A DNA stretch of 34,264 nt from positions 1 to 34,264 of the forward strand of contig JANYKI010000009.1 in the NCBI GenBank assembly GCA_025361645.1, read 5' to 3'. The notes beneath the pieces are model-generated. The model did not search any database. It saw only the letters and a list, made by a program, of their open reading frames with translations, and was not told where the DNA came from. Both the position numbers and the translations under genes were made by a program. This document shows positions 1,717 to 19,378 of the stretch, piece by piece. Position 1 is the first letter of the stretch; every line of letters begins with the position of its first letter. Source of the DNA: Methanothrix sp. Lineage in GTDB: Archaea; Halobacteriota; Methanosarcinia; Methanotrichales; Methanotrichaceae.

Positions 1717-1974
1717 TTAAGCCTCGCCGTACGGTTCACGAGCTTCCACAGTCACTCTGCACTCGATGAGGTCGTCCTCCACGGGAACGGGCTCGCCATC
1801 CTCAATGAGGCTCTCCACATAACCCGTGATTGCATCCCTGGACATCTCGATGGCCTCTTCTACCGTCTTTCCGAAAGTGACACATCCAGGAAGGGCCGGG
1901 ACCAGCACGGTGTAACCTCCTTCAGGTTCTTTTCTAAGAGTGATTCGATAACTAAGAGTCCTCATAGTAGGCAT
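1717..1974 (-). CDS. HicB-like antitoxin domain protein (copy 2, solo)
   Basis: An 85-residue HicB-fold protein. It differs from the copy at 93-338 by one residue in the shared part (Phe for Tyr in GCVTFGKT) and by its tail (VTVEAREPYGEA). The nucleotide match runs without indels at an offset of 1636 bases from 108/1744 through the gene and on through the promoter into the divergent aroA relic. The copies therefore arose by duplication of a larger unit. No hicA-like ORF accompanies it: downstream (below 1717) lies only an inverted repeat and then the PIN gene. The TATA-like element on the minus strand near 1987-1998 is conserved. A second ATG at 1965 could be the leaderless start. Its role as a regulator without toxin is inferred. 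Confidence 0.78.
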   Translation of the reverse strand: MPTMRTLSYRITLRKEPEGGYTVLVPALPGCVTFGKTVEEAIEMSRDAITGYVESLIEDGEPVPVEDDLIECRVTVEAREPYGEA

Positions 1975-3547: not shown

Positions 3548-6079
3548 ATGCCAAAAAAAAACTACCCTGAATATAATGTTGATAAATACAGGCGAAAAAT
3601 ACAAAAAACACCGATTGAATTAGCAGAAGAACGGATTGAGATTTATAAATTTAAGCATTTTGGCGGCGACTTCAATTCGTTCGAATTAACCCGTTCTCTA
3701 AATCTAAGAAATATGGGACTACAAAAATTTCCGGAAGGCTTGCGCACCTTGCGGGATATTGAATTTATTGATCTATCCGGTAATTATATACGAGAAATAC
3801 CACAATGGATTAAGGATCTATCATCACTTAGGGAACTTCGCTTTACTCATAATTGCCTAAAGACACTACCAGATGATATTGGTTGGTTGCATCAACTAAA
3901 AATTCTTGATTTGAGCTGCAATCGCCTTACCGTGCTACCAGAGACACTCTATCAACTGTCGCTCAAACAGCTAGAATTGGATGGAAATCCCGGACTGCAA
4001 ATTCCCGAAAGCCTGCTCAAAGGGCGACCAGAAGAGATTCTCCGCTATTATTTTGAATCACGTGATGAAAAAGGAGGGCCGCTGCTTGAGCTAAAACTGC
4101 TACTAGTAGGAAGCGGAAAAGTTGGGAAGACAACGCTCTTGAAGCAACTGGCCGACGAGGAGCCAGATGCAAACGAATCTGAGACCCATTCTATCGCAAT
4201 CCGCAAACTTACTCTTAGATGCAACCGTGGCCGCGTCCGGGTACACGCATGGGATTTTGGTGGACAAGAAATTCTCCATTCAACGCACCAGTTTTTCTTA
4301 ACCGAGAGAAGTCTTTATCTGCTCGTGTTGGAACCACGAATGGGGCTCGCGCAACGCGATGCTGAATATTGGCTCAAGCTCATTGAGACGCAGGGTGGCA
4401 GATCTCCGACAATCGTGGTGTTAAATTGGAGTCATGAACGCTATTGGCAAGTAGATAAAGTAAAACTACTGCGGAAATTTCCTTTCATTGTGGATTTCAT
4501 CGCAACTGATGCACTCTTTGGTAAGGGTATTGAGGAATTGCGCCGCACTATTCTGAAGACTGTTGAGGATAGGATGCAAGATGTTTGGCTTCCATTTCCA
4601 GGGCGTTGGCGGAAGATTAAGTATGCTGTCGCAGGAATGGATGAGAATTTCTTCACCTATAAACGATACGCCGAACTATGCGAGAAATTTGGTGAGAGTG
4701 ATCCTGCGGCACAGACTGATTTAGCTGGTATTCTTCATGCGTTGGGTTTGGCGCTCTACTTTGGCAAAGATCCCCGATTACATGATACGAGAGTTCTTAA
4801 TCCCAGATGGGTTACCGGCGGGGTCTACGCAGTAATTCGGGCGTCATTTGTGGCGGAAAATGATGGCCAACTCGCGGTTAGGGATATGCCCCTTGTTTTG
4901 CAAAAAGCTGAAGAACAAAAGGCGATCAAGGCGAGCGATTACCCAGTCGAAACACATCGCTTTATTCTTGAGTTGATGCGCGCCTTCCAGTTGTGCTATG
5001 CAAGCGAGGTGGGGAAAGATGAGCTTGTAGGGCGGGCCAGCGATAAAGAAGAGCTGAAACCGGTTCGTTACCTTGTACCAGAGTTGCTGCCGGAATTCGA
5101 GCCTGAGATGAACGAGAAATGGGAGAAAGCGCCGGTGCATCTCCGATACCGTTATGAAGTCCTATTGCCAGGGCTGCTCCCGCGTTTCATTGTTCGCACT
5201 CACCCATTGAGTGATGGCGCACCACATTGGCGGCACGGCGTTGTCCTGCGCCACGCAGAAGCCAAGGCGCTGATTCGAGCTGAGTCGGATAGACAAGAAC
5301 TTCATGTCTTTGTGCAGGATGGCGATGCTGAGACGCAGCGCGTGCTCGTAGCAATGGTGCGCCGGGAATTGGAAATGCTCCATGCAGATATGAAGATACA
5401 GCCTGTGGAGGAACTAGAGCTGACAGGCGAGGGCGAGCAATGGATAAGCGTTAAGGCTCTGCGTGATCTCGAACAACCTGGGATGGCGACACTGAAGCTA
5501 CCTATTCAACCGGAAGGGACTGCAGAAATTAATGTGACTCGTGAACTTAACAAACTTATTCCGGTAGAGGCACGGGCAATTGACCGTGATCCGGCCATCG
5601 CGCCGGTCCCAGTGCGAGTCTTTGTAAGTTATGCGCACGACGATGAGAAACAACTCGATCGTCTAGATAAGCTTCTTGGTGTGCTCGAACAGCAGCATGG
5701 TCTGTCTTCATGGCGCGACAGACGACTCATCGCTGGCGATGAATGGGATGAGGAAATTCGCCGACGCCTGGAAGATATGGACATTTTCATTTTCATTGCC
5801 AGCCAGACCTCGCTTGTTCGGCCTTACATCAAGGACCCAGAACTCAGGAGAGCCAAAGAGCGCCGAGAAGCTGGTGAAGTAGAAATCGTGACGGTGAAGC
5901 TTGAGCCGTGTGCGTGCGACGACGATCCTTTTCTCAGCAAGTTGCAGCGATTGGCCCCCTGGATTAAGAGTGTCGTCGAAACATCGCCAAGGTCCAAAGC
6001 ATGGGATCAAATTAGAAAGGATCTAATCCCTGTCATCCAGCGGGTGCGGGATAAGAAGAAAAAGACCGCTAAGGGCTAG
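3548..6079 (+). CDS. LRR-Roc-COR-TIR protein (ROCO family)
   Basis: An 843-residue multidomain signalling protein. Leucine-rich repeats lie at about 46-155 (LNLRNMGLQKFPEGL, LDLSCNRLTVLPETL). A Roc GTPase domain is at about 181-345, with P-loop GSGKVGKT at 188-195 and switch motif DFGGQE at 236-241; the usual NKxD is replaced by NWSHE near 293. A COR dimerisation domain spans about 350-600. A TIR domain runs from about 689 (VRVFVSYAHDD) to about 810, with a Glu near 765 in the position of the NADase glutamate. Family knowledge: Roc-COR proteins are GTP-regulated dimers, and prokaryotic TIR domains often cleave NAD in defence or cell death. I infer a sensor-switch-effector protein, possibly anti-phage. 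It is intact and not in an obvious operon. A class III cyclase relic follows directly. Confidence 0.9.
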   Translation: MPKKNYPEYNVDKYRRKIQKTPIELAEERIEIYKFKHFGGDFNSFELTRSLNLRNMGLQKFPEGLRTLRDIEFIDLSGNYIREIPQWIKDLSSLRELRFTHNCLKTLPDDIGWLHQLKILDLSCNRLTVLPETLYQLSLKQLELDGNPGLQIPESLLKGRPEEILRYYFESRDEKGGPLLELKLLLVGSGKVGKTTLLKQLADEEPDANESETHSIAIRKLTLRCNRGRVRVHAWDFGGQEILHSTHQFFLTERSLYLLVLEPRMGLAQRDAEYWLKLIETQGGRSPTIVVLNWSHERYWQVDKVKLLRKFPFIVDFIATDALFGKGIEELRRTILKTVEDRMQDVWLPFPGRWRKIKYAVAGMDENFFTYKRYAELCEKFGESDPAAQTDLAGILHALGLALYFGKDPRLHDTRVLNPRWVTGGVYAVIRASFVAENDGQLAVRDMPLVLQKAEEQKAIKASDYPVETHRFILELMRAFQLCYASEVGKDELVGRASDKEELKPVRYLVPELLPEFEPEMNEKWEKAPVHLRYRYEVLLPGLLPRFIVRTHPLSDGAPHWRHGVVLRHAEAKALIRAESDRQELHVFVQDGDAETQRVLVAMVRRELEMLHADMKIQPVEELELTGEGEQWISVKALRDLEQPGMATLKLPIQPEGTAEINVTRELNKLIPVEARAIDRDPAIAPVPVRVFVSYAHDDEKQLDRLDKLLGVLEQQHGLSSWRDRRLIAGDEWDEEIRRRLEDMDIFIFIASQTSLVRPYIKDPELRRAKERREAGEVEIVTVKLEPCACDDDPFLSKLQRLAPWIKSVVETSPRSKAWDQIRKDLIPVIQRVRDKKKKTAKG

Positions 6080-6414
6080 CGGAAGATTGGCTGCACCATC
6101 AAGAACTCCAGTTACAAGGAAATACGGGCCATCCTCAGATCCAAATTCGTGCAGGAATTCATATCGGGCCGATGCATGTGGAGGAAGGCGATGTGTTTGG
6201 CGGCACAGTGAACTTCGCCTCCCGCGTGGTCGGAGCCTTCAAAGGCGCAGAGATCTGGCTGAGCGATCGGGCCAAAGAAGACATCGATCGGCTTGGAGCG
6301 GTGCAGCACAAGCGGCTGGGATGGCAGCGGCACGATGGCGTGACCATGAAAGGCTTTCCCGGCACATTCACGCTGTGGGCGGTGCGAAAGGGGCCTGGCC
6401 AAAGAAATCGGTAG
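6073..6414 (+). pseudogene. Class III adenylate/guanylate cyclase C-terminal relic
   Basis: An open stretch with no credible start, following an in-frame TAA at 6070. It reads IQIRAGIHIGPMHVEEGDVF and GGTVNFASRVVGAFKGAEIW, then SDRAKEDIDRLGA and VTMKGFPGTFTLWAV. This is the second half of a class III nucleotide cyclase catalytic domain (family pattern RxGIHxG, GDVFGxTVNxAxRV, ELKGFxxPxxxY). The first half, with the metal-binding aspartates, is missing. It begins inside the last codons of the ROCO gene in another frame, so the break probably reflects a deletion or the junction where the ROCO gene arrived. An ATG at 6172 would give an 80-residue product, unlikely to be an active cyclase. Confidence 0.65.
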
Positions 6415-6512
6415 GCGTGCATTCTTGTGATCGGCGGTTGGCGAGAGTCAGGCAGTGGATCAATTATGGGCAGGAATTTGTTTCTGCCAAAATTGTCCTT
6501 CTCTCATCGAGA

Positions 6513-6652: not shown

Positions 6653-6660
6653 TTTATATA
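6653..6660 (+). promoter_or_regulatory. TATA box for the acylphosphatase/coiled-coil gene
   Basis: TTTATATA, followed by AAAAG, is centred about 27-28 bases upstream of ATG 6685. That is the spacing expected for an archaeal leaderless transcript. Confidence 0.55.
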
Positions 6661-6684
6661 AAAAGAGAGCTACGAATAAATGTG

Positions 6685-7488
6685 ATGCAGAGGCTAAACG
6701 CTTACATCTCCGGCAAGGTCCAGAAGACCGGCTACAGGGCAAGAGTTGTCACCATTGCTCAGAATTTAAGACTGAACGGGTATGTGCAGAACCTTGAAAA
6801 TGGACTGGTCAAAGTTGTGGCTGAGGGCGAGACCGCTAATTTGGAGGAGTTGCTTAAGGCTATTGATATTAAAAACACCCTTATCAATGTAACCGATATC
6901 CGGAAAGAGTACTCTCCTGCAATAGGTGATTTTGACAGCTTCTTCAAGGCTGTATCCGGAGGCGAGACGGATCAGAGGCTTGATGCGGCTGCGCATTTAC
7001 TAAAAAAACTTATTGTAGTAAATGAAAAAATATTGGGTGTAATCACTGCCACTCATGAAGAATTGAAGGAAACACATGAAGAAATTAGAGGCTCACGCGA
7101 AGATATTAGGGGCTCATGTGAAGATATTAGAAGCTCTCGTGATGCCATTGTTGGCGAGATAAGAGCTTCACGTGATGCCACTGTTTGCGAGATAAAAGCG
7201 TCACGTGATGCCACCATTGGCGAGATAAGAGCTTCACGTGACGCCACTGTTTGCGAGATAAAAGCGTCACGTGATGCCACCATTGGCGAGATAAAAGCTT
7301 CACGTGATGCCATTGTTGGCGAGATAAGAGCATCAAACGACGTAATTGCAGGAGAAGTCAGTGAAGCACGAGACGCTATTGTCGGCGAGATTGGAGAGCT
7401 TCGTGTTGATCTAAAGGAAAGCGTTGATGATAGAATGACGAGAATAGAATCCAACATCTCCCAAATTAAAGAAAAGGTAAGCCTCTAA
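6685..7488 (+). CDS. Acylphosphatase-like domain fused to hendecad-repeat coiled coil
   Basis: A 267-residue protein. Residues 1-75 match the acylphosphatase fold (ISGKVQKTGYRARVVTIAQN, then LNGYVQNLENGLVKVVAEGE), where GxVQxxGYR is the phosphate-binding loop with its Arg. Acylphosphatases are normally about 90 residues and stand alone. After a helical linker (about 76-130) the rest is a long coiled coil, including about eight tandem 11-residue units of the form GEIRASRDATV / CEIKASRDATI. Hendecads form right-handed or straight coiled coils. Two Cys-bearing units alternate with Gly-bearing ones. The start at 6685 is chosen because the acylphosphatase fold begins there and a TATA box lies 27 bases upstream. 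The open frame extends to 6427 but is intergenic in character. Function unknown: perhaps a scaffold, sensor or membrane-tethering rod. Confidence 0.75.
   Translation: MQRLNAYISGKVQKTGYRARVVTIAQNLRLNGYVQNLENGLVKVVAEGETANLEELLKAIDIKNTLINVTDIRKEYSPAIGDFDSFFKAVSGGETDQRLDAAAHLLKKLIVVNEKILGVITATHEELKETHEEIRGSREDIRGSCEDIRSSRDAIVGEIRASRDATVCEIKASRDATIGEIRASRDATVCEIKASRDATIGEIKASRDAIVGEIRASNDVIAGEVSEARDAIVGEIGELRVDLKESVDDRMTRIESNISQIKEKVSL
7156..7287 (+). repeat. Two tandem 66-bp units inside the coiled-coil gene
   Basis: Unit 7156-7221 is repeated at 7222-7287 with one visible difference (GATGCC/GACGCC). Each unit encodes two 11-residue hendecads (GEIRASRDATV plus CEIKASRDATI). Weaker 33-base units flank them on both sides. 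The near identity points to recent in-frame expansion or contraction. Confidence 0.85.
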
Positions 7489-7665
7489 AGATTTTTACCA
7501 CGAGTAGGCGACGTTCGGAAATTTCAGGGGCGGATTTTGCGCAGATCAGATCCTTCTTGCCCCGAAACTCCTAGGATAGTCCATTGCTGGATAAGATTGA
7601 GGCAGATTCCAAAAAGATAAGAGAGAATGCGAGGTCGAGAATTTGACCGTCCTGGATATGAGTCT

Positions 7666-8018
7666 ATGAGAATACCGCTATACCATGTCGATGCCTTCAC
7701 CTCCGAGGTCTTTTCCGGCAACCACGCCGCAGTATGCCTCCTGGATTGCTGGCCTGATGACCAGATCCTCCAGGCCATGGCTGCTGAGAACAACCTCTCT
7801 GAAACGGCTTTTTTGGTCCGCAATGCCATAGGATTTGACATCAGATGGTTCACTCCTCTCACAGAGGTCGCGCTTTGCGGCCATGCCACATTGGCGAGCG
7901 CTTTTGTTCTTTTCAATTCTCGAAGAGAGGCGGCGAGTTATTCTGCACCAATGCAGGCGACCGCGTAAAGATATCAGGAAGAGCAGCTCTCTATCTGGAG
8001 GGCATGATAACGGCTTGA
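7666..8018 (+). pseudogene. phzF-like isomerase/epimerase relic
   Basis: The N-terminal third of a PhzF-family protein: MRIPLYHVDAFTSEVFSGN, AAENNLSETAFLV, and the hallmark GHATLASAFVLF. The normal length is 260-300 residues. The frame is lost near 7920, where a shift moves the reading into GGELFCTNAGDRVKISGR and then LYLEGMITA before a TGA at 8016. After that the remainder of the gene is absent. The catalytic Glu (NLSETAF) is retained, but the second lobe is missing, so no active enzyme is expected. The start is ATG 7666; an in-frame ATG at 7627 lies before the family's usual beginning. The substrate of the original enzyme is unknown. Confidence 0.75.
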
Positions 8019-11935: not shown

Positions 11936-13239
11936 GGTTCCTCGCCGTTCTTAGTGGGAAAGGGGCAAAGTTTAATAATATCCCTGGTTGAATTATTACC
12001 CGTGACTCAATCACAGGAAGACCTACTTAAACTCGCATTGACTCTCCAAGATCCTTGGTATGTCAAATCCATAGAATTCAACAATGCAGAAAAGCGAATT
12101 GACATAAATATTGATTTTGTGGCAGGCAGTCGATTTGAATGCGTATTGTGCAAAACGCCGAACAATAGCATTCACGACACAAAAAATAGAGTATGGCGTC
12201 ATCTTAATTTTTTCCAATTCAAAACATACATTCATGCCCGAGTGCCGCGCACAAAATGTCAGAAATGCGGGTCCATAAGGTTGATTGATGTTCCATGGGC
12301 TAGGAGAAGCGTCCATTTCACATTGCTAATGGATTCAATGATACTGCTTTTGGCCCAGAATATGCCAGTTATGGCTGTAGCTGAGATAATAGGTGAGCAT
12401 GATACAAGGATTTGGCGGGTTTTATCTCACTATATTCCGGAATCGAGGTCTAAAGAGGATCATTCTAATGTAAAAAGAGTTGGAGTTGATGAGACCTCAT
12501 GCGCCAAAAACCATAAATATGTATCGCTATTTGTTGATCTTGACAATAATAAAGTTTTATATGTATGCGAAGGAAAGGACGCAAGTGTTATCAGCTCATT
12601 TAAGGAAGACCTTGAGAATCATAATGGCGCATCGAAAAATATAGATATGTTCTGCTCGGACATGTCTCCTGCATTCATCTCAGGTATAACGGAACAGTTT
12701 CCAGAATCGTCACTTACTTTTGACAAATTTCATGTTGTGAAGATGGTCAATGAAGCAGTAGATCAAGTGCGTCGCGAGGAGCCGCACCACAATGCAGAAT
12801 TAAAGAATACTCGATATATATGGCTAAGAAACCCAAACAAGCTTTCATTGGCTGAAAAAGAAAAGCTTGGCTCTCTCAAAGATATGAATTTAATGACTTC
12901 TAAAGCATACAATTTCAAGCTAAGTCTAAAAGACTTTTGGACGTATAATGATAAGCTCCTTGCGGAGGATTTCCTTAAAAACTGGTATTATTGGGCGTCA
13001 CATAGCCAAATTGACCCAATTATTGATGCAGCCAAAACCATAAAGAGACATTGGACCGGCATAATAAATTATGTAGACACCAAAATATCAAATGGCGTGT
13101 TAGAAGGAATAAACAGCATGGTTCAATCAGCAAAGAGCAGTGCGAGAGGCTTCAGGACAACGAAGAATCTCATTCTAATTATATATCTTAGACTCGGAAA
13201 AATCCAATTCAATCTTCCCACATGAAGCAGCGAGGAACC
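11936..13239 (+). mobile_element. ISL3-family insertion sequence (complete, 1304 bp)
   Basis: The ends are imperfect inverted repeats: GGTTCCTCGCCGTTCTTAGT at the left and, on the other strand, GGTTCCTCGCTGCTTCATGT at the right, both followed by GGGAA. The first ten bases are identical and about 19 of 25 match. The element is flanked by an exact 8-bp target duplication AGAAAATT at 11928-11935 and 13240-13247. It contains one ISL3-type DDE transposase gene. It sits inside a GNAT gene, and both flanks still read in frame, so the insertion is recent. The 8-bp duplication is typical of ISL3. Confidence 0.95.
11954..13225 (+). CDS. ISL3-family transposase
   Basis: Up to 423 residues. The N-terminal zinc-binding region has two Cys pairs (FECVLCKTP and TKCQKCG), followed by a helix-turn-helix-like part (MAVAEIIGEHDTRIWRVLSH). 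The DDE nuclease core follows, with Asp in VGVDETSCAKNHKYVSLFVD, Asp in FCSDMSPAF, and Glu in SNGVLEGINSMV; FDKFHVVKMVNEAVD is a classic ISL3 segment. The ORF can start at GTG 11954 inside the terminal repeat, but GTG 12002 (just before TQSQEDLLKLAL) fits family starts better. The frame is intact with no internal stops, so the element may still be mobile. Confidence 0.93.
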   Translation: MGKGQSLIISLVELLPVTQSQEDLLKLALTLQDPWYVKSIEFNNAEKRIDINIDFVAGSRFECVLCKTPNNSIHDTKNRVWRHLNFFQFKTYIHARVPRTKCQKCGSIRLIDVPWARRSVHFTLLMDSMILLLAQNMPVMAVAEIIGEHDTRIWRVLSHYIPESRSKEDHSNVKRVGVDETSCAKNHKYVSLFVDLDNNKVLYVCEGKDASVISSFKEDLENHNGASKNIDMFCSDMSPAFISGITEQFPESSLTFDKFHVVKMVNEAVDQVRREEPHHNAELKNTRYIWLRNPNKLSLAEKEKLGSLKDMNLMTSKAYNFKLSLKDFWTYNDKLLAEDFLKNWYYWASHSQIDPIIDAAKTIKRHWTGIINYVDTKISNGVLEGINSMVQSAKSSARGFRTTKNLILIIYLRLGKIQFNLPT

Positions 13240-17431: not shown

Positions 17432-19378
17432 TCACCTCACCGGCTGCTGCTGGCTGATGCAGTGGATCGTGCCCAGCCCGTGCACCATCTCCCGGCAGTT
17501 GATGCCCAAGACCTGCCGCTCCGGGAAAGCCTCCCCAATTATCTTCAGCGCCACATTGTCGTTCCTGTGCCCGAAGACCGGCACCATGACCACATCGTTG
17601 CCGATGTAAAAGTTGGCGTAGCTGGCGGGCAGTCGTGGCTCCGCGCCCACGCGTCCGGGCATGGGCAGCTTGATCAACGTCAAGGGGAGGCCGTCCTGGT
17701 CCGTCTCCCGGCAGAGCAGCTCGTAATTCTGCTTCAGGGCCGGGTAGTTCTCATCCTCAGGATCGTCCTCGTAGGCGCATAGAACCGTGGTCGGATTCAC
17801 AAACCTGGCAATGTCGTCCACATGCCCGTCTGTGTCGTCTCCGGTGATGCCCTCTTTCAGCCAGATGACCTTCTGCACACCCAGGAATTCCCGGAGATAG
17901 CTCTCGATATCCTCTTTATTCAATGATGGATTTCGGTTCTTATTGAGCAGGCACTGCTCCGTGGTCAGCACGGTTCCGCAACCGTTCACATCGAATGAGC
18001 CGCCCTCCATGACGATGCCGGGGCGGAAGCACTCCATCTTGAGATCACTGTTGATGAGGCTGCCTATCCTTGCGTCTGCCATCAGCTCCTCATACTTCTC
18101 GCCCCAGGCGTTGAAGACCCAGTTAACGGCCGCGACTCCTTTTCCTGCCTCATTCTCACGGACCACAAAGGTGGGGCCGTAGTCCCGGAACCACACGTCC
18201 GCATAGTTTAACAGATGGAAGTGAACCCGGCGCAGATCGACCTTCTCATTTTTCAGTCGGTCCACTACGGCACGAAGCAGCATCTCATCTTTGACCAGCA
18301 GGTTGACAATCTCGCTCTGGTGAATGGCTTTGATGATGGCCAGGTAGGCCTTCTCCACGGCCTCGATCTTTGGGAAGCTGTTTAGATCGTAAGGCCAGGA
18401 GAGCCAGATGGCCTCGTGACGCTCCCACTCCGCCGGCATGTGGTAGCCCAACGAGCGCGGCGTGTCCTTTAGGCTGAGCCCTGCCTCCTCCTTTTTCCCG
18501 GGCTTTGCCATATCCCCCTCCTGCACCATCTCGATGAGCGGCCAGTAGACATCCGGCCGGCGATTGCGGAAGAAGCCCCAGCCCTCCCGCACCTCTTCGT
18601 TGTGGCCCAGATCAAGCTCCACCACCAGCACCTCTTCCGCGCTGCTGCTGGCTTTGGCCAGGATTTTGCCAAAGCAGTCGCAGACAAAGGAGCTGCCCCA
18701 AAATACCAGGTCCTCCTCCCGGCCCACCCTGTTGGCCGCAGCCACACAGACGCTGTTGGCAATGGCGTGGCTCCTTTGCACCGTCTCCCAGGCGTCGTGC
18801 CAGTCGCCCTCCACCGGGTCCTCCTCGCCTTTTATCCAGCCGATGGCCGTGGGATAGAATATGATCTCTGCGCCAGCCAGGGCGGCTACGCGTGCCGCCT
18901 CCGGGAACCACTGGTCGTAGCAGATGAGCACCGCAAATTTGGCATAGCGGGTATCGTAAACCCGGATCTCCTCGCCGGGGGTAAAGTAACTCTTCTCGTA
19001 AAAGAGAGGATCATGGGGAATATGCACCTTTCTATAGGTGGGAAGAAGGCTGCCGTCCGCGTCAATTACAGCCACGGAGTTGTAGAAGCCGACTTCGTCT
19101 CGCTCGAAGACAGGTACTATTACTACTATCTGCAGTTCTCTGGCCAGCGCAGAAAAGGCCTCTGTGGACGGGCCGGGAATGGTCTCCGCCAGGGCCGCGG
19201 CATCTTTTTGATCCCACTGAGGAAAGTAGCGCGTGCGGAAAAGCTCCTGCAGGCAGACGATCTTTGCGCCTTTGCTTGCGGCCAGTCTTACCTTTTCCAT
19301 AGTTCTCTTCAGATTGAGATCGAGATCCTCGGAGACAGAGGTTTGAATCAATGCGATAGTGATCTTTTTTGCTGCCAT
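17432..19378 (-). CDS. N-carbamoylputrescine amidase / agmatine deiminase fusion (AguB-AguA)
   Basis: A 648-residue bifunctional enzyme. Residues 1-290 are a nitrilase-superfamily amidase like AguB, with triad Glu45 (CLQELFRTRYF), Lys117 (TYRKVHIPHDP) and Cys153 (AVLICYDQWFPEAAR). Residues about 308-648 are a complete agmatine deiminase like AguA: YHMPAEWERHEAIWLSWPYD, VMEGGSFDVNGCGTVLTTEQ, TDGHVDDIARF, and the catalytic Cys640 in GLGTIHCISQQQ. AguA converts agmatine to N-carbamoylputrescine plus ammonia, and AguB splits that to putrescine, CO2 and ammonia. One chain would therefore catalyse both successive steps, which are usually two genes. A linker at about 290-307 joins them. All active-site residues visible are intact. 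Start ATG 19378; stands alone on the minus strand. Confidence 0.93.
   Translation of the reverse strand: MAAKKITIALIQTSVSEDLDLNLKRTMEKVRLAASKGAKIVCLQELFRTRYFPQWDQKDAAALAETIPGPSTEAFSALARELQIVVIVPVFERDEVGFYNSVAVIDADGSLLPTYRKVHIPHDPLFYEKSYFTPGEEIRVYDTRYAKFAVLICYDQWFPEAARVAALAGAEIIFYPTAIGWIKGEEDPVEGDWHDAWETVQRSHAIANSVCVAAANRVGREEDLVFWGSSFVCDCFGKILAKASSSAEEVLVVELDLGHNEEVREGWGFFRNRRPDVYWPLIEMVQEGDMAKPGKKEEAGLSLKDTPRSLGYHMPAEWERHEAIWLSWPYDLNSFPKIEAVEKAYLAIIKAIHQSEIVNLLVKDEMLLRAVVDRLKNEKVDLRRVHFHLLNYADVWFRDYGPTFVVRENEAGKGVAAVNWVFNAWGEKYEELMADARIGSLINSDLKMECFRPGIVMEGGSFDVNGCGTVLTTEQCLLNKNRNPSLNKEDIESYLREFLGVQKVIWLKEGITGDDTDGHVDDIARFVNPTTVLCAYEDDPEDENYPALKQNYELLCRETDQDGLPLTLIKLPMPGRVGAEPRLPASYANFYIGNDVVMVPVFGHRNDNVALKIIGEAFPERQVLGINCREMVHGLGTIHCISQQQPVR

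Follow-up and report, generated by a model that had tools for sequence, protein, structure and literature searches.

The 34,264-nucleotide stretch of Methanothrix DNA analysed here (the window) encodes, in the open reading frame at 6685–7488 on the forward strand, a protein of 267 amino acids (G000:C22 in the survey) in which an acylphosphatase head is followed by a neck, a long predicted helical rod of repeated units and a conserved C-terminal cap (Table 1). The protein belongs to a real and conserved family, in which a known enzyme domain is placed in a new architecture. The architecture, not recognised in the original prediction, is not unique to this protein, which is part of a large multi-copy archaeal family, of which 131–132 tailed proteins, with tails of 33–190 residues, were collected here. 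The surprising points of the family are its copy number and the evolution of its rods.

Table 1. Positions of the promoter and of the protein segments in the window
Feature	Position	Strand	Evidence
Archaeal TATA-like core promoter TTTATATAAAAAGAGAGC, about 25–30 nt before the ATG	6653..6670	+	Conservation in orthologs
Acylphosphatase head, residues 1–89	6685..6951	+	PF00708, AlphaFold, Foldseek
Cradle GKVQKTGYR, residues 10–18 of the head	within 6685..6951	+	
Neck, residues 95–126, start of the long helix; motif GETDxRLD followed by hydrophobic residues	6967..7062	+	Motif conserved among group A members
Seven-residue-type repeats HEELKET/HEEIRGS/REDIRGS, 21-bp array	7063..7122	+	Tandem Repeats Finder, 7073–7142, period 21
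Rod of eight units of 11 residues (33 bp) each, in part alternating to give a 66-bp unit; residues 147–234, register read by eye	7123..7386	+	Tandem Repeats Finder period 33/66, hydrophobic period
Conserved C-terminal cap, residues 235–267, ending DRMTRIESNISQIKEKVSL	7387..7485	+	Cap pattern among tailed representatives

Architecture of the window protein

The acylphosphatase-type domain proposed in the original prediction is borne out both by domain search and by structure prediction. Residues 6–86 match PF00708 with an E value of 6.6e-18 and 65.2 bits, above the curated cutoff of 22.5, and the AlphaFold model of the head displays the alpha/beta sandwich fold of acylphosphatases, superposing in Foldseek on the solved acylphosphatase 4ojh with a TMt of 0.93 and an r.m.s.d. 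of 1.2 Å. Arg18 and Asn36, equivalent to the catalytic Arg23 and Asn41 of bovine acylphosphatase, are both present; in acylphosphatases the arginine binds phosphate and the asparagine orients the catalytic water (PMC8147672). The canonical VQGV cradle, with a glycine after the glutamine, is absent from the window protein, which has Lys14 in its place, this glycine (bovine Gly19) being dispensable for PF00708 membership. Among the NCBIfam acylphosphatase equivalogs the best match, NF011007, reached 60.2 bits, below the cutoff of 100, and the protein is not a HypF, since the head is followed by a helical tail only, with no carbamoyltransferase domains. A run hydrophobic enough for a membrane anchor was not found in P0001, where the highest 19-residue Kyte–Doolittle mean is 1.19.

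In the AlphaFold model, a single chain built with 32 aligned relatives, the tail forms one unbroken predicted helix of 171 residues (residues 95–265; mean pLDDT 92). The low pTM of the window protein (0.46) probably reflects the lack of a fixed position of the head relative to the rod. Together with this continuous helix, the 33-nt units, the eight-unit register and a hydrophobic period of 3.64 residues bear out the predicted hendecad rod of about eight 11-residue repeats. On the other hand, the core of the rod is rich in Ala, Ser and Arg, which is weak for a coiled coil and counts against self-association, and the tail is covered by none of the Pfam coiled-coil families, its matches to them being weak and below the cutoff. 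The near-identical 66-bp DNA repeats described originally were likewise recovered: Tandem Repeats Finder located a 33/66-bp array at 7131–7335, with 3.1 copies of the 66-bp unit at 91% matches, a 64-base piece of the unit is repeated at 7165 without a mismatch and at 7231 with one (chance expectation 0.00), and a repeat search of the gene gave a 33-nt spacing across seven copies. An assembly artefact, the weakness foreseen for this array, is unlikely, as the units bear individual substitutions and the same kind of array is found in paralogs from genomes assembled in one or two contigs. The suggestion of redox cross-linking between rods found no support and was rejected, because tail cysteines are rare (57 in 14,050 residues, with any cysteine in 48 of 132 tails) and are absent from the tails of L052, L053 and L055, the closest orthologs.

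A TATA-like element lies at an equal distance from the ATG in the orthologs L052, L053, L055, L056 and L057, as well as in the paralog C33. Its retention among orthologs of the window subfamily supports a near-leaderless and independently promoted gene, as had been read from the short promoter gap, and the transcript of the window gene probably starts at a promoter of its own and has hardly any leader or none. The open reading frame also extends upstream to a start at 6427, which is a mechanical extension only. In the close ortholog L053, a stop codon directly follows the conserved start position (ATG TAG, L053:4001–4009), and the copy is perhaps inactive or uses a different start.

Conservation of the head

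In the non-redundant set of tailed heads, only Met1 is better conserved than Arg18 and Asn36, which rank above the residues of the fold and are each kept in 129 of 131 tailed members. The glycine after the cradle glutamine, present in 72 of 88 short proteins, is retained in only nine of the 131 tailed ones; in most of these it is replaced by Lys, Arg, Asp, Glu or Met, a systematic change of the phosphate loop that could lower or change activity. The dN/dS ratios of heads between close pairs range from 0.06 to 0.33, and the heads are under purifying, not diversifying, selection.

Distribution and phylogeny

A profile search of the window genome returned 14 PF00708 matches, among which C131 is an ordinary short acylphosphatase; most of the others have tails of varying length, and some are broken or cut off by the end of a contig. 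Between two and 22 matches per genome (median about nine) were found in 24 congeners, in contrast to one to three in 16 other Methanosarcinia. By a hand count over a phylum-wide sample, five or more matches occur in eight of 13 Methanotrichaceae and in about 19 of some 280 other genomes. The neck motif alone is present in 15 of 295 genomes, and relatives detected with the neck profile belong to Methanotrichaceae and other Halobacteriota; one tailed member (L084) occurs in a Nitrososphaeria record. Tailed genes form tandem clusters in G111, with five copies in 3.7 kb, and in G062.

A quick tree, built from 159 heads, unites 50 untailed acylphosphatases (SH-aLRT 92) apart from the tailed proteins, most of which belong to either group A (60 of 68 rows) or group B (30 of 36 rows); several short rows inside these groups are truncated copies, and full-length HypF rows form a separate group. 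With its few columns, its many open forks and the 13 changes that the tail label requires on it, the tree does not demonstrate a single origin of the tail.

Turnover of the repeats

Tandem arrays were detected in 89 of 132 tailed genes and in 37 of 394 neighbouring open reading frames of at least 120 amino acids, a control that includes frames antisense to members and frames running across CRISPR repeats; for strong arrays (score of at least 80) the counts are 77 of 132 and 10 of 394. Without exception, the 89 repeat periods are multiples of 3 nt, so that the frame is never broken, and 81 of them correspond to 7a + 11b residues, the remainder being of 10, 17 or 24 residues. Periods of this kind retain the register of a coiled coil, and most of the rods tested have a hydrophobic period of about 3.5–3.64 residues. 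The syntenic orthologs of C52 (L068, L070, L071 and L073, with synteny judged by shared neighbours) have near-identical heads and unequal counts of IELQKET-type units, while the window ortholog L052 has fewer hendecads and an expanded THEELKE heptad instead; another ortholog, L057, has a short rod and a total of 180 amino acids. Such differences between orthologs indicate that tail length shifts by gain and loss of repeats, in steps of seven and eleven residues, with the register kept, and the recent length change of the original prediction is supported. The cap pattern is found in 61 of 84 tailed representatives, compared with five of 84 mid-tail positions and 0.3% of shuffles.

Genomic context

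Most copies stand alone among housekeeping genes in syntenic positions. A conserved operon partner was rejected, as recurring neighbours only reflect the synteny of orthologs. One tailed member (L235:3001–3558) lies on an IMG/VR contig, next to portal, head-morphogenesis, head-protease and anti-repressor genes. Scans of viral contigs with the group B profile gave zero matches, and collections of phage and plasmid records gave partial head matches only, none spanning 80% of the protein. Two clusters of copies lie near cas genes or a CRISPR array, and a general CRISPR association was rejected because most copies have no such surroundings. In G307, a CRISPR array of 33 repeats (L195:9700–12100) is located about 1 kb downstream of three tailed genes. 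Identity with an anti-phage defence system was also rejected, PADLOC having returned no convincing model match, only a weak one of the rod to ZorA (E = 0.007).

Within the genus, acylphosphatase counts correlate with those of response regulators (rho = 0.49), but the correlation vanishes once genome size is removed (partial r = 0.07, p = 0.74), and other Methanosarcinia in that sample possess 5–30 response regulators yet just one to three acylphosphatases; a link to two-component signalling is hence unsupported. In a single case (G004:C1:366075–366950, L157), a short tailed acylphosphatase directly precedes a response-regulator gene that has the same orientation.

Directly upstream of the gene, the window encodes an LRR-Roc-COR-A/COR-B-TIR protein of 843 amino acids (3548–6079, forward strand), the TIR domain of which matches ThsB-like models, possibly pointing to defence or signalling. 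Decayed genes flank the gene on either side, a fragment similar to the final part of an adenylate cyclase (6172–6414, forward strand) and a truncated PhzF-like gene (7627–7968, forward strand). Elsewhere in the window are two near-identical HicB-like antitoxin genes 1.4 kb apart (93–338 and 1717–1974, reverse strand), an ISL3-family transposase (11954–13225, forward strand) and a single open reading frame (17432–19378, reverse strand) that joins a carbon–nitrogen hydrolase (PF00795) to an agmatine-deiminase-type domain (PF04371), probably placing two steps of putrescine synthesis in one chain.

Discussion

The explanation preferred here, given an even chance of being correct, is that these proteins are cytoplasmic acylphosphatases borne on a self-associating coiled coil, with active heads clustered on a rod of adjustable length. 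The conservation of its catalytic residues suggests that the head is an active acylphosphatase, and the sequence periodicity of the rod is consistent with oligomerisation. Identical chains would associate in parallel through rod and cap, the assembled rods would bring several active heads together, and either cap or rod would dock them to a partner or site, with a reach set by a rod length that is free to drift or to be selected. The ligand bound and hydrolysed by the heads would be an acyl-phosphate, possibly an aspartyl-phosphate on a protein or, alternatively, another that is not handled by the single untailed acylphosphatase, and the many paralogs may serve different partners or conditions.

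That tailed members have systematically lost the cradle glycine but retained the arginine and asparagine could also indicate that the head is a non-catalytic sensor of phosphate or acyl-phosphate, in which binding at the Arg/Asn pocket would be relayed along the coiled coil to a partner bound at the cap. This reading is modelled on small alpha/beta sensor domains joined to coiled coils, such as BLUF-cyclase; indeed, Foldseek also matches the BLUF adenylyl cyclase, in which a coiled coil comes after an alpha/beta sensor, and the many paralogs and the absence of metabolic gene neighbours point the same way. However, Asn36 orients the catalytic water and would not obviously be needed by a pure binder, yet it is as well kept as the arginine, and a sensor is considered somewhat unlikely. 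A mainly structural cytoplasmic rod or scaffold (filament or spacer), with the head as an end cap, would account for the long rods of most members, the drift in repeat copy number and the conserved cap, but not readily for catalytic residues that are more conserved than those of the fold, and is very unlikely.

It is also quite unlikely that the family is one of genome conflict, its copies spreading with viruses and Borg-type elements and its rods diversifying to evade or reach changing partners. The member on a tailed-virus contig, the Borg acylphosphatase with KLVEGQN repeats (PMC9879509), the tandem arrays, the damaged or truncated copies, the two clusters near cas genes or a CRISPR array and the TIR-bearing gene just upstream in the window would all fit such a family. 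This has to be set against a single viral contig with a tailed member across three completed viral scans, the solitary and syntenic housekeeping surroundings of most copies, PADLOC families without a convincing match, and selection on the heads that is purifying rather than diversifying. A broader proposal, itself unlikely, is that the proteins constitute an unrecognised archaeal family of acylphosphatase rods of adjustable length, expanded in Methanothrix and present also in at least one tailed virus and probably in a Borg. Natural gain and loss of seven- and eleven-residue units would here alter the reach of clustered heads, and the family would make up a dedicated system of phospho-signalling or conflict based on acyl-phosphates.

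Methanothrix, one of the major producers of methane, is generally considered to activate acetate by a route that does not involve acetyl-phosphate. Its genomes contain up to 22 acylphosphatase-domain matches each, which a domain search reads just as acylphosphatases; if the heads are active, acyl-phosphates would have a role in these archaea that has apparently never been looked for. The rods also provide a natural series of coiled coils of stepwise lengths with one type of head and one type of cap, usable for studying the evolution of length through repeat gain and loss.

Comparison with known systems

Acylphosphatase (AcP, EC 3.6.1.7; PF00708), exemplified by the enzymes of Sulfolobus solfataricus and Pyrococcus horikoshii, shares with the tailed members its fold, the catalytic Arg and Asn and the cradle loop. 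Known AcPs are single domains of about 90 residues, to which the tailed members add their tails; these members usually also lack the cradle glycine and have many paralogs per genome. HypF is likewise a longer protein with an N-terminal acylphosphatase domain, but goes on to carbamoyltransferase domains, whereas the tailed members have a helical rod only. Hendecad and heptad coiled-coil rods have in common with the tails the seven- and eleven-residue units and the hydrophobic period, although here no Pfam coiled-coil family covers the tail.

The family appears to be undescribed as such: in the open-access literature, which is weak evidence of absence, no description of the architecture was found besides the listing of a Borg protein. 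This protein, subfam0779 of the Red Borg aaTR proteins, is an acylphosphatase with the repeat KLVEGQN (PLoS Biol 2023, PMC9879509), given there as a single table entry under carbon and energy, with no family context. Compared by description only, it resembles the tailed members in combining an acylphosphatase with in-frame heptad tandem repeats, the units being divisible by three. Most such repeats are taken as disordered in that study, whereas the tails described here are predicted to form one helix.
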